From an uncultured Pelagibacteraceae bacterium (GTDB lineage: Bacteria; Pseudomonadota; Alphaproteobacteria; Pelagibacterales; Pelagibacteraceae): a DNA stretch of 64,000 nt. The stretch spans positions 72,001 through 136,000 of the forward strand of contig CACMJB010000002.1 in NCBI GenBank assembly GCA_902613915.1, given 5' to 3'. This document shows, one piece after another, positions 1 to 42,132 of this stretch. The notes below the pieces were generated by a model. It searched no databases, was not told the origin of the DNA, and saw only the letters and a list, made by a program, of their open reading frames with translations. Positions within the stretch are counted from its first letter, which is position 1; every line of letters begins with the position of its first letter. Position numbers and translations under genes: made by a program.

Positions 1-1329
1 GACTGCTCTTTTTCCAGAATAACTTAAATTTCTTTGAATACCTCTTTTGTCCTGACAAATTTTTATAATAGATCCTAAATACTCGTCTGGCGTTATTATT
101 GTTGATTTGATCCAAGGTTCCTCTATTTTTTCTATCTGAGAAGGATCTGGCATATTAGATGGATTTTGTAAATCCATAGCTTCTCCTTTTGTTGTGTGAA
201 CTTTATAAATTACGCCAGGTGTGGTTGTTATAAGATTTACATCAAACTCTCTTTCTAATCTTTCAGTTATAATTTCAAGATGAAGTAGTCCTAAAAAACC
301 GCATCTAAATCCTAAGCCTAATGCGCTAGACGATTCTGGTTCATAAGAAAAACTTGCATCATTTAATTTTAATTTTGCTAATCCATCTTTTAATTTTTGG
401 TACTCAGAACTATCGACTGGGAAAAGTCCACAAAAAACTACAGGTTTACTTGGTTTAAATCCTGGTAAAGGAGTTTTAATTGGGTTTGTTACATCGCATA
501 TTGTATCTCCGACTTTTGTTTCAGAGAGAGATTTTATGCCTGTAATTATAAAACCAATTTCTCCAGAATTTAACTCGGGAATATCATTAGGTTTAGGAGT
601 AAAAACGCCAACTTTCTCGATTAAGTATTCTTTGTCGTTGGACATTAATTTTATTTTCATATTTTTTTTTAATTTGCCATTAATCACTCTAACTAATATG
701 ACAACACCTAAGTAGCTGTCATACCAGCTATCAACTAGCAAACATTTTAGTTTTTCCTCAGGGCTTCCCATTGGTGAAGGTAATTTATTTATTATTGCTT
801 CTAAAATATCATCAATTCCTTCGCCTGTTTTACCAGAACAAGAAATTGCATTAGTCGTTTCTATCCCAACTACATCTTCAATCTCAGTTTTAGTCTTTTC
901 GATATCTGAAGCTGGCAAGTCAATTTTGTTTAAAATTGGTATTACTTCATGATTAATTTCTAAAGCCTGATATACATTAGCTAATGTCTGTGCTTCTACT
1001 CCTTGGGTGCTATCAACAATTAGCAATGAACCTTCACATGCTGATAAGGACCTACTTACTTCATAACCAAAATCTACATGGCCTGGTGTATCAATAATAT
1101 TTAAAATATAATCTTTTCCGTCTTTGGCTTTATAATTTAGTTTAACTGTTTGTGCTTTTATTGTTATTCCTCTTTCTCTCTCGATATCCATTGAATCTAA
1201 GACTTGTTGTTTCATTTCTCTGTCAGTCAAACCACCACACTTATGAATAATTCGATCAGCAATAGTTGATTTACCGTGATCTATATGCGCAATAATAGAG
1301 AAATTACGTATTCTTTTTATATCTGACAT
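1..1329 (-). CDS. lepA: Translation elongation factor 4 (LepA), C-terminus cut by window edge
   Basis: This is a ribosome-associated GTPase of the EF-G-like family, thought to act on stalled or back-translocating ribosomes at the inner membrane or in the cytosol. The first 443 codons are present; the family is about 600 residues, so the C-terminal third lies beyond base 1. I read the reverse complement directly. The P-loop AHIDHGKST is at residues 14-22, the G2 segment ERERGIT at 50-56, the G3 segment DTPGHVDF at 80-87, and NKID follows at about residue 130. The ATG at 1327-1329 overlaps the pheT stop codon (TAATG), so it is probably translationally coupled as the last gene of the thrS-to-lepA block. 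Linkage of lepA to pheT is not universal. Confidence 0.95.
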
Positions 1330-39451: not shown

Positions 39452-40126
39452 ATGCCTAAAAAGAAAAAAGTAAAAAAAACAAAAAAAAGTAAAAAAGTAA
39501 AAAAGGTAAAAATTAAGAATTCTGCTAAATCTGCAGCCAAACCAATAGAGAAAAAAAACAATATTCTTGGACAAGATGAAAAACCAGAGATTAAAAAAAT
39601 TAAAAAGCAACCTACAGAAAAACGTATTTATAATTTAAAAGATTTTGTTGTGTATCCGAAGCATGGTGTGGGTAAAATCACAGCTATTGAAAAAGCTAAA
39701 ATTGGAGAAATTGATATCCAATTTTATAAAATACTAGTTGAGAAAGAAAAATTAACTCTAACTGTTCCTATAAATCAACAATCAAAATTAAGACCAATTT
39801 CCTCTATTAATCAAATTAATAAATGTATTTCTATATTAAAAACTAAGCCAAAAATAAAAAGAACAATGTGGAGTAGACGTGCTCAAGAATATGATCAAAA
39901 AATAAACTCGGGTAAAATATATGAGTTGGCCGAAGTGGTAAAAGATCTTAATAAGAACACAGATATCATAGCTGATCAGTCTTACTCTGAAAGACAATTA
40001 TTTGAAAAAGCGTACGAAAGACTCAAATCTGAATTTGAGGCAGTACTAAAAACAAGTCCTGAGGAAGTTCAAAAGAAAATGGATAAAGCTTTAGGTAGAA
40101 CAAATATTTCAGAGAATGCAGAATAA
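39452..40126 (+). CDS. carD: CarD-family RNA polymerase-binding regulator with lysine-rich N-terminal tail
   Basis: CarD binds RNA polymerase beta and stabilises open complexes, often at rRNA promoters. The 224-residue product has a CarD_CdnL-type Tudor-like domain beginning KDFVVYPKHGVGKITAIEK (about residues 64-82) and a helical C-terminal domain with TMWSRRAQEYDQKINSGK and SYSERQLFEKAYERLKSE. The first 58 or so residues are a Lys/Ala tail resembling histone H1 C-termini (MPKKKKVKKTKKSKKVKKVK). This tail is not part of the usual family. The gene ends just before a bidirectional terminator. Confidence 0.93.
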   Translation: MPKKKKVKKTKKSKKVKKVKIKNSAKSAAKPIEKKNNILGQDEKPEIKKIKKQPTEKRIYNLKDFVVYPKHGVGKITAIEKAKIGEIDIQFYKILVEKEKLTLTVPINQQSKLRPISSINQINKCISILKTKPKIKRTMWSRRAQEYDQKINSGKIYELAEVVKDLNKNTDIIADQSYSERQLFEKAYERLKSEFEAVLKTSPEEVQKKMDKALGRTNISENAE

Positions 40127-40127
40127 A

Positions 40128-40163
40128 AAAACGCCCTTTTTAAAATAGTTAAAAAGGGCGTTT
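40128..40163. terminator. Bidirectional terminator after carD and after the 22-residue peptide gene
   Basis: AAACGCCCTTTTTAA (40129-40143) pairs perfectly with TTAAAAAGGGCGTTT (40149-40163), a 15-bp stem. The T-run is best on the minus strand (seven T). It closes carD from the left and a minus-strand small gene from the right. Confidence 0.85.
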
Positions 40164-40177
40164 AGTAAAAGAGAAAA

Positions 40178-40246
40178 CTATCTTTTTCTTCTTCTCTTTT
40201 TAGCTTTTTTCTTTTTCTTTTTAGCTTTTTTTCTTCTTTTAGCCAT
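40178..40246 (-). CDS. Very small Lys/Arg/Ala peptide, 22 residues
   Basis: The minus strand encodes MAKRRKKAKK followed by KKKKAKKRRRKR and TAG: 22 residues of which 18 are Lys or Arg and three Ala. A strong Shine-Dalgarno sequence AAGGGAG (40252-40258) lies five bases before the ATG, better than nearly any other gene here. A terminator follows 15 bases after the stop and a promoter-like pair lies upstream. I know of no named family for it; composition recalls eukaryotic/archaeal eL41, bacterial Thx and histone H1 tails. Likely roles are RNA, ribosome or DNA binding. AT-rich poly-purine DNA could produce such an ORF by chance, but the framing signals argue against that. Confidence 0.65.
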   Translation of the reverse strand: MAKRRKKAKKKKKKAKKRRRKR

Positions 40247-40296
40247 CTTTTCTCCCTTGTTATTAAACAAATCTTAATGATTCGTTTGTTAATTCA

Positions 40297-40324
40297 ACAT
40301 TAATTATTAAAAGATTCATGTCAA
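40297..40324 (-). promoter_or_regulatory. Putative promoter of the 22-residue peptide gene
   Basis: Minus-strand TTGACA (40319-40324, perfect) and TAATGT (40297-40302) are 16 bases apart, giving a leader of about 44 bases. The remaining gap 40325-40455 is almost pure A+T; I see nothing else in it. Confidence 0.35.
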
Positions 40325-40455: not shown

Positions 40456-42132
40456 TTAATAAAGATTTTCTAATTGTTGTTTATATTTTTTAATTATTTC
40501 TTTTCTTTTTAACTTTAAAGTTGGTGTTAACATTCCGTTTTCAATTGTAAATTCCTCATTAATTAAAACAAATTTTTTAACTTTTTCTATTAAAGTTAAA
40601 CTTTTATTTATATTTTCAATTATAAGTTTAATTTTATTGTTATCAGTTCCTTTTTCTGTAACAACTAGAGCAACTAAATAGTTTTTTTTATCTCCATAAA
40701 CAAAAGATTGTTTAATAAATTCGTTTAAACATAAAATATTTTCAATTTTACTTGGTGAAATATTATCTCCACCTAAATTAACAATAATATCTTTTTTTCT
40801 ATCAGTTATTTTTAAATAATTATTTTGATCAAGTTCACCAATATCACCTGTATGTAACCATCCATCTTTTATTGCTCTTTCAGTCTCTTCTTTTAGATTC
40901 CAATAACCCAACATCACATTTTCACCTTTTATTAAAATTTCGCCATCATCTGCTATTCTCACTTTATTGGTTCTAAATGGAGGGCCCACGGTCTCAACTT
41001 TTACTAAATCTGGTAAATTGCAGCTTACTACAGGAGATGTCTCGGTAAGACCGTAACCTTGTAAAGTGGGCAGTCCTATAGCGTTTAAAAATTCTCCGAT
41101 ATTTTGATCTAAAGCTCCTCCACCAGAAACAAAGGCTTGAAGATTTCCGCCAAATTGATTTCTTATTTTTTTTCGAACTAATTTTTCACATAAAAAATTA
41201 ATGATTTTTTCTCCTAAAGTTAATTCCTCTTTGTTGAGAATTTTTTTTCCAAGATATAAAGTTTGATTAATTAATTTTCTTTTAATCCCATTCTGTTTTT
41301 CAAAATTCATATTTATTTTTGTAAAGAGATTTTGATAAAATCTTGGAACGGCTGTCATAATAGTTGGTTTTGCAACTCCCATATTAGAAATTAATTTTTC
41401 TAAACTTTCAGCATAAAAAACTTTAGCACCTACAATGATCTGTATGAATTGAACTGTGTGTTCGTAAGAATGTGACAAAGGCAACCAGGTTAAAAATCTA
41501 GGGTCTTTTTTTTTAGTTAAAGTTTCGAGTAATTCAACCGCTCCTTCACAATTAGATAATATACCGCCGTGACTTAAAATTACTCCTTTAGGATTACCTG
41601 AGGTGCCTGATGTATAAATAATACATGCAGGCATATTTCTTTTTAAATTATCATTAATTTCTTTTTTATAATTATCTTCATTTAGAATATTATTAATTAA
41701 TAAACTATCAGCTTCAATTTCTTCAAAAGAGATTATTTTTTGCTCATTTAAATTTACGTAATCTTTTATTTTTTTAAATTGATCATTGTTAGAGACAATA
41801 ATTAAAGATGGCTTACAGTCGTTTAAGATATATTTATAATCATTTGATGAATATGTTGTAAAAATTGGAACTGAAATTCCTCCTGCATTCATAACTGCAA
41901 GATCGGACATTAACCAATAAGGCCTATTCTCAGATAATATTAAACAACGATCACCTTCATTAATTAAAGTTTTTATTTTTGTAGAAAGCTTAAATATTCT
42001 CTCTTTAATATCACCCCAAGTATAAGTTGGTTTATTAGGTTTTAACCATTTTAAAAAAGGCTTATTAAGATCAACTTCATCACACTTTTTAAAATAAAGT
42101 TCTACTAGACTATTTAGTTTATCTATTTCCAT
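40456..42132 (-). CDS. Long-chain acyl-CoA synthetase (AMP-binding)
   Basis: A 558-residue ANL-superfamily ligase of the FadD15/FAA type that activates fatty acids to acyl-CoA. The P-loop is CIIYTSGTSGNPKGVILSHGG, here cited as IYTSGTSGNPKGV (about 171-183). The motif GYGLTETSPVVS (about 356-367) and the hinge region DGWLHTGDIGELD followed by ITDRKKDIIVNLGGDNISP are visible. It lacks membrane segments. Its ATG begins four bases after the CCA end of tRNA-Leu on the same strand, leaving no room for a separate leader. The C-terminal catalytic Lys is not obvious at the usual place, but this subfamily ends differently. Confidence 0.9.
   Translation of the reverse strand: MEIDKLNSLVELYFKKCDEVDLNKPFLKWLKPNKPTYTWGDIKERIFKLSTKIKTLINEGDRCLILSENRPYWLMSDLAVMNAGGISVPIFTTYSSNDYKYILNDCKPSLIIVSNNDQFKKIKDYVNLNEQKIISFEEIEADSLLINNILNEDNYKKEINDNLKRNMPACIIYTSGTSGNPKGVILSHGGILSNCEGAVELLETLTKKKDPRFLTWLPLSHSYEHTVQFIQIIVGAKVFYAESLEKLISNMGVAKPTIMTAVPRFYQNLFTKINMNFEKQNGIKRKLINQTLYLGKKILNKEELTLGEKIINFLCEKLVRKKIRNQFGGNLQAFVSGGGALDQNIGEFLNAIGLPTLQGYGLTETSPVVSCNLPDLVKVETVGPPFRTNKVRIADDGEILIKGENVMLGYWNLKEETERAIKDGWLHTGDIGELDQNNYLKITDRKKDIIVNLGGDNISPSKIENILCLNEFIKQSFVYGDKKNYLVALVVTEKGTDNNKIKLIIENINKSLTLIEKVKKFVLINEEFTIENGMLTPTLKLKRKEIIKKYKQQLENLY

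Follow-up and report, generated by a model that had tools for sequence, protein, structure and literature searches.

A conserved 22-codon gene beside carD in SAR11 bacteria and its probable histone-H1-like product

Does the seemingly empty gap next to carD in an uncultured Pelagibacteraceae genome hold a gene, and what would its product be? We studied this question in a window of 64,000 nucleotides, i.e., the whole stretch of DNA analysed. The gap is bordered by carD, which runs convergently, and by an AMP-binding acyl-CoA ligase-like gene (40456-42132) on the same minus strand as the candidate ORF. The first-pass annotation had described a unit consisting of TTGACA, AAGGGAG five bases before an ATG, a 22-codon ORF with 18 Lys/Arg and a TAG stop, all of which are read directly on the minus strand. 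Concerning its terminator, the 15-bp stem (span 40163-40129, with a seven-T run at 40131-40125) is confirmed, while the distance to the stop codon is 14 rather than 15 bases. Respective coordinates are provided in Table 1. The 22-mer is composed of Lys, Arg and Ala without Pro; it has a net charge of about +18 and no hydrophobic residue besides Met and Ala, and is unlikely to fold alone.

Table 1. Features of the peptide gene and its convergent neighbour (positions within the window).
Feature	Position	Strand	Basis
-35 element TTGACA	40319..40324	-	direct reading; TTGAC(A/T) in 101/101 loci
Probable -10 element TAATGT, 16-bp spacer to -35	40297..40302	-	reading and same-genus alignment (TAATGT/TAAAGT/TAGAGT)
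Leader hairpin AAACGAATC-ATTAA-GATTTGTTT, 9 bp	40265..40287	-	fold z -5.3 at this locus; mean of -3.4 across 101 loci
Invariant CGAATC (contains GANTC)	40279..40284	-	101/101 loci, at a distance of 33-36 bp to the -35 element
Shine-Dalgarno AAGGGAG	40252..40258	-	five bases 5' of ATG
ORF of the 22-residue Lys/Arg/Ala peptide, MAKRRKKAKKKKKKAKKRRRKR	40178..40246	-	ATG 40246-40244, TAG 40180-40178; conserved in 92 distinct loci, synonymous excess
Intrinsic terminator, 15-bp stem AAACGCCCTTTTTAA/TTAAAAAGGGCGTTT and T-run	40125..40163	-	reading and same-genus alignment; abuts carD stop codon
carD, convergent neighbour marking the slot; lysine-rich N-terminal tail	39452..40126	+	Pfam CarD_C 4.8e-20, CarD_TRCF_RID 4.3e-12

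The present reading adds the -10 element and its spacer, which were absent from the first-pass annotation, and places a predicted transcription start near 40290. Directly after this predicted start follows the leader hairpin, which had been overlooked; compared to dinucleotide shuffles, its z-score is below -2 in 87% of the 101 loci. The gene has its own promoter and terminator and is predicted to be monocistronic.

Next, we investigated whether the unit is conserved. The low-complexity composition of the peptide defeats HMMER: a profile search with the 22-mer alignment recovered only 16/61 genomes, and the copy in the window itself was not among its matches. We therefore adopted slot-based and leader-based searches and used carD as landmark. 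The whole unit is retained within the window's genus, where 29/29 loci show an ORF of 20-25 codons beginning with MAKR, plus Shine-Dalgarno sequence, stop and terminator. When 297 genomes of the order were searched with the leader pattern, 79 single matches resulted, and the ORF was found in each of the 30 loci fetched. To avoid reliance on the leader pattern, we took 20 further loci (g6, g7, g8, g10) by carD position and without that pattern; all 20 carry the ORF, where the screen also required an SD-like motif. One g5 locus has a 36-residue form. The gene adjoins carD in every SAR11 locus with a readable slot; the window's family accounts for 92 distinct loci. A pattern scan of the collection gave mostly unrelated matches, and those bearing the gene were Pelagibacteraceae/SAR11 records. 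One strict pattern found no phage copies in viral contigs.

Within the window's family, the peptides have 20-37 residues (92 distinct loci), and just seven residue types make up the sequence after Met: K (54%), R (24%), A (17%), T, P, S and G. This composition is partly circular, since the filter that gathered the loci required a K/R-rich ORF after a Shine-Dalgarno sequence; the slot counts of 29/29, 20/20 and, for the sister family discussed below, 9/9 are less affected. Likewise, the start codon is preceded by a strong Shine-Dalgarno sequence in all family loci used, with an SD-like motif being part of the filter for the 30-locus, 20-locus and 92-locus sets. The first-pass annotation had named missing conservation of ATG, frame, stop and Shine-Dalgarno sequence in related genomes as grounds for dismissing the gene; all four are conserved. 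Its claim of a real unit holds far beyond chance, given 29/29 same-genus loci and the retention throughout the order. Judged from these comparisons, the small gene is real and conserved.

To see if the ORF evolves as a reading frame, we ran the comparison of synonymous and non-synonymous changes that had been suggested earlier, based on 33 disjoint nearest pairs. Here, 74 of the 176 changes are synonymous, while 49.8 +/- 4.7 are expected when the same changes are placed randomly; in 500 such trials the synonymous count never exceeded 62. None of the 176 changes leaves the residue set KRATPSG (29% expected). Some of the pairs include shifted alignments, i.e., Ala/Lys swaps caused by repeat indels, and the synonymous excess should therefore be conservative. 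Codon choice provides a further signal. The Lys codon AAG makes up 27% in the peptide genes compared to 14% in 48 ORFs of the window, the longest A-run per gene is 6-9 bases, and runs of at least 10 are not found at all (41% expected from the genome's codon use). Compared to synonymous shuffles, 84/92 genes have shorter A-runs. The pattern resembles selection acting against slippery poly-A in a message that is translated. The synonymous excess together with the interruption of poly-A runs thus supports translation of the ORF, which we consider a strong inference from these sequence patterns.

What kind of protein is encoded? The clearest hint comes from the sister family, where 9/9 loci contain an ORF of 76-91 residues in the same position and orientation (e.g., MEELKVIFAKARKKAKKKAAPKKKRKAAKRKPAKKKAAPKKKKRKAAKRKPAKKK...); this counts the loci whose contig reaches the slot, while two more are truncated at the contig edge. 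Its protein is an AAPKKKK-repeat resembling a histone H1 tail, and it is preceded by the same promoter and leader. That is, both families show TTGACA, then ACGAATCA..TGATTC or a variant at equal distance, and then a strong Shine-Dalgarno sequence. They also share a distance of 33-36 bp from the -35 element to CGAATC, a hairpin, the terminator and the convergent orientation to carD. Intermediate forms are found as well, namely 37 residues with AAPKKKK in g8 (MAKKRKKAAKKKATKKKATKKKAAPKKKKAKAKKRKK) and 31 residues with RRKPAKK in g7. By position and leader, short and long forms are orthologous; we base this link on position and regulatory anatomy because low-complexity sequence alone cannot prove homology.

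The sister family is the first to split off in the CarD tree. Within the window's family, g5/g8 (34-37 residues) and g7 (31) form deep branches and the genus of the window (20-25) occupies a nested position; the deeper supports in this family are moderate (80-94%). Forms of 31-37 residues are thus located on deep branches of the window's family, although g6 also reaches 35. The tree fits a shortening within the window's family. The protein may instead have grown in the sister family: the outgroup alphaproteobacterial carD loci that we examined carry nothing similar in the same slot, such that the direction of change is not polarised by them.

Because the slot of the sister family holds an H1-like protein with the same promoter and leader, we consider the 22-mer to be probably a minimised H1-like polycation. 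Two hallmarks of H1-like proteins are observed, i.e., low-complexity K/A/P-rich sequence (via the AAPKKKK repeats of the sister family) and length variation by repeat units, here in whole-codon steps. A match to a curated family profile is not among them. The 22-mer has no Pfam match at 0.001 and no NCBIfam match at 10, in line with the earlier statement that no named bacterial family with this sequence was known, and the long and intermediate forms give no relevant Pfam/NCBIfam match up to E = 10, including Hc1 and Hc2, where low-complexity filters limit what a profile test can tell. Based on composition and evolution, the peptide would work like a bacterial H1-like protein; since there is no profile match and DNA binding is only predicted, we do not claim membership.

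We envisage the following mechanism. Transcription from a strong sigma-70 promoter, whose timing may depend on methylation, would yield a short message with 5' hairpin and terminator, and the strong Shine-Dalgarno sequence would drive high-level translation. The peptide, presumably shortened within the window's family, would coat DNA and probably RNA too, without sequence preference, thereby neutralising phosphates. Such DNA coating could help to compact or buffer the nucleoid.

Among known proteins, AlgP shares the H1-like composition, with KPAA-type repeats that may be compared to the AAPKKKK of the sister family. It is much longer, and its reported function is the spacing of polyphosphate granules in Pseudomonas (PMC9239181). 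The closest kind are bacterial H1-like proteins such as, in particular, Chlamydia Hc2 (HctB), reported with 165-237 aa and a length that varies by lysine-rich pentamers (PMC2848022). Hc2 and the present peptides have in common the Lys/Ala-rich low complexity and the length change by whole repeat units. On the other hand, the length of Hc2 is 7-10 times that of the 22-mer, it belongs to another phylum and matches by no profile, and DNA binding is only predicted here. eL41 and bTHX are also very basic and have about 25 residues. eL41 keeps W/M/L anchors and a near-fixed length, whereas the short forms described here use only K/R/A/T/P/S/G after Met, and the overall length ranges from 20 to 91 residues. 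The first-pass annotation had named H1 tails, eL41 and Thx as analogues. Given the AAPKKKK protein in the sister-family slot, the H1 tail is favoured, while eL41 and Thx are disfavoured due to the length range, the lack of aromatic/aliphatic anchors in 92 loci and the missing family match.

A small ribosome-associated product that clamps rRNA, similar to eL41, bTHX or bS22, is nevertheless conceivable, if unlikely: size, charge and the strong Shine-Dalgarno sequence resemble those of eL41/bTHX, and the gene is present at every readable slot. A protein moulded to rRNA is however hard to reconcile with 20-37 versus 76-91 residues and frequent whole-codon indels; the 92 loci show neither aromatic nor aliphatic residues, and Pfam and NCBIfam give no match. 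We rate it as quite improbable that the polycation mainly serves polyphosphate or other polyanions instead of the nucleoid, as an AlgP-like granule organiser. While the role reported for AlgP in spacing granules (PMC9239181) provides a precedent and a K/R peptide would bind any polyanion, no link to a polyphosphate gene is seen at the locus.

The functional product might also be the RNA itself, i.e., a small regulatory transcript with 5' hairpin and terminator in which the ORF is incidental. Both structures are conserved and the transcript of about 165 nt is sRNA-sized, but its conserved middle evolves as a reading frame, with synonymous excess, codon-sized length changes and interrupted A-runs, the strong Shine-Dalgarno sequence is kept, and the ORF of the sister family is 3-4 times longer within the same transcript. 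This renders a pure RNA function very unlikely; transcript and peptide may still both be active in a dual-function RNA. Rfam yields at a relaxed threshold only sub-threshold matches over ORF and terminator, which we take as chance. Two other roles were considered and rejected. A uORF or attenuator does not fit a unit whose own terminator follows the ORF and which faces carD, with no same-strand gene downstream before carD. An antisense effect on carD as main role conflicts with the predicted transcript end at the carD stop.

We now turn to the leader, whose CGAATC was not mentioned in the first-pass annotation. It is identical in 101/101 loci and followed by A (once by G). Its distance to the ATG ranges from 36 to 63 while that to the -35 element is fixed within 33-36 bp, and we thus consider it anchored to the promoter and not to translation. 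Most loci pair CGAATC itself within the hairpin, in the window's genus with one G-U pair. In g5, g7 and g8, the pairing is rewired to a different, downstream stem (TCACTTAAAT..ATTTAAGTGA) and CGAATC is retained. The second half-site of the window's genus mostly reads GATTTG, whereby a G-U pair is kept and the second GANTC destroyed. Because CGAATC stays where the pairing is rewired and pairing is kept where the second GANTC is lost, the leader seems to be under two constraints, namely a fixed CGAATC and a hairpin. The same two observations lead us to reject a pure operator palindrome. The terminator hairpin is also kept in other genera, with different sequence.

A second helix is found in the leaders of the sister family, g5 and g8 (L030, L229-L236, L212, L213, L239), with CTCC or CCTC as potential pairing partner of the Shine-Dalgarno sequence. 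As far as pairing potential can tell, this suggests translational control in these groups that was lost in the window's genus.

What could the invariant CGAATC be good for? GcrA is reported to activate methylated promoters with YGAKTCG (PMC7987155). CGAATCR is contained in CGAMTCR, the reverse complement of this motif, and GAATC is a CcrM site (GANTC); this context is found in 101/101 loci. Both regulators are encoded in the window's genome, namely GcrA (2.4e-39) and CcrM (6pbd 6.4e-137; NCBIfam CcrM 568.8 bits, below the cut-off of 830). GcrA is also present in 12/12 representatives including the sister family, while CcrM was searched in the window's own genome. TTGACA-N28-38-CGAATC occurs a single time in that genome. 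The sequence context and gene content agree with GcrA/CcrM promoters and suggest a cell-cycle-gated promoter. In contrast, the site is predicted at about +7 to +12, i.e., downstream of the predicted start; for cell-cycle-activated promoters of Caulobacter, one main class is reported with GANTC between -35 and -10 (PMC4287350). We consider the GcrA reading less likely than not; CGAATC could also be a start-proximal RNA element or one of initial transcription. The combined picture of a cell-cycle-gated 'micro-histone', whose promoter would read the replication-dependent methylation of the invariant GANTC through GcrA, is a little less probable still.

Further observations concern GANTC and ccrM. 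The spacer between -35 and -10, i.e., the classical position for GcrA, contains a second GANTC (TGAATC, 40313, minus strand) that only part of the genus retains. Within the window, GANTC occurs 90 times compared to 178 expected from base composition, i.e., it is about twofold depleted, consistent with avoidance outside functional sites. In the window's genome, ccrM directly follows an ORF resembling rnhB (L269, 1-1701); for Pelagibacter, Meyer et al. 2009 reported an unassigned RNA motif located between rnhB and the methylase gene (PMC2704228).

Few cell lineages on Earth are as abundant as SAR11. The peptide gene is found throughout the SAR11 loci sampled and is yet without a family model, sitting in a gap that gene finders skip. 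Standard proteomics would likely miss the product, whose tryptic peptides should be too short to detect. If our reading is true, it is to our knowledge the smallest H1-like protein, and an H1-like protein cut to about 22 residues would illustrate the extent to which streamlining of a nucleoid polycation is possible. Gating by methylation, if true, would tie the polycation supply of SAR11 to replication-fork passage, a bacterial parallel to S-phase histone expression. Furthermore, if the invariant GANTC works, it would provide the GcrA/CcrM circuit with a concrete target in this lineage; for Pelagibacter, an earlier survey reported that no ctrA was found (PMC2877005). Stav et al. 2019 reported at least three SAR11-confined sORFs with undefined functions in HIMB5 intergenic regions (PMC6429828), which resemble the present gene in being short, intergenic and confined to SAR11. 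The main text of that study neither names the gene nor contains 'carD' (PMC6429828), and the gene may already be listed there as an unnamed sORF without function.

Finally, two observations relate to carD. In another alphaproteobacterium, a K/A-rich H1-like ORF is located 5' of carD (L264, 954-1331, plus strand); this ORF could represent an unrelated lysine-rich protein or be read out of frame. The N-terminal tail of CarD spans 59-123 residues with 35-44% K/R in the window (39452-39640, plus strand) and the order's carD loci, compared to 8-16 residues in many other alphaproteobacteria, a few others being also long. That is, CarD of this order may itself bear an H1-like tail.
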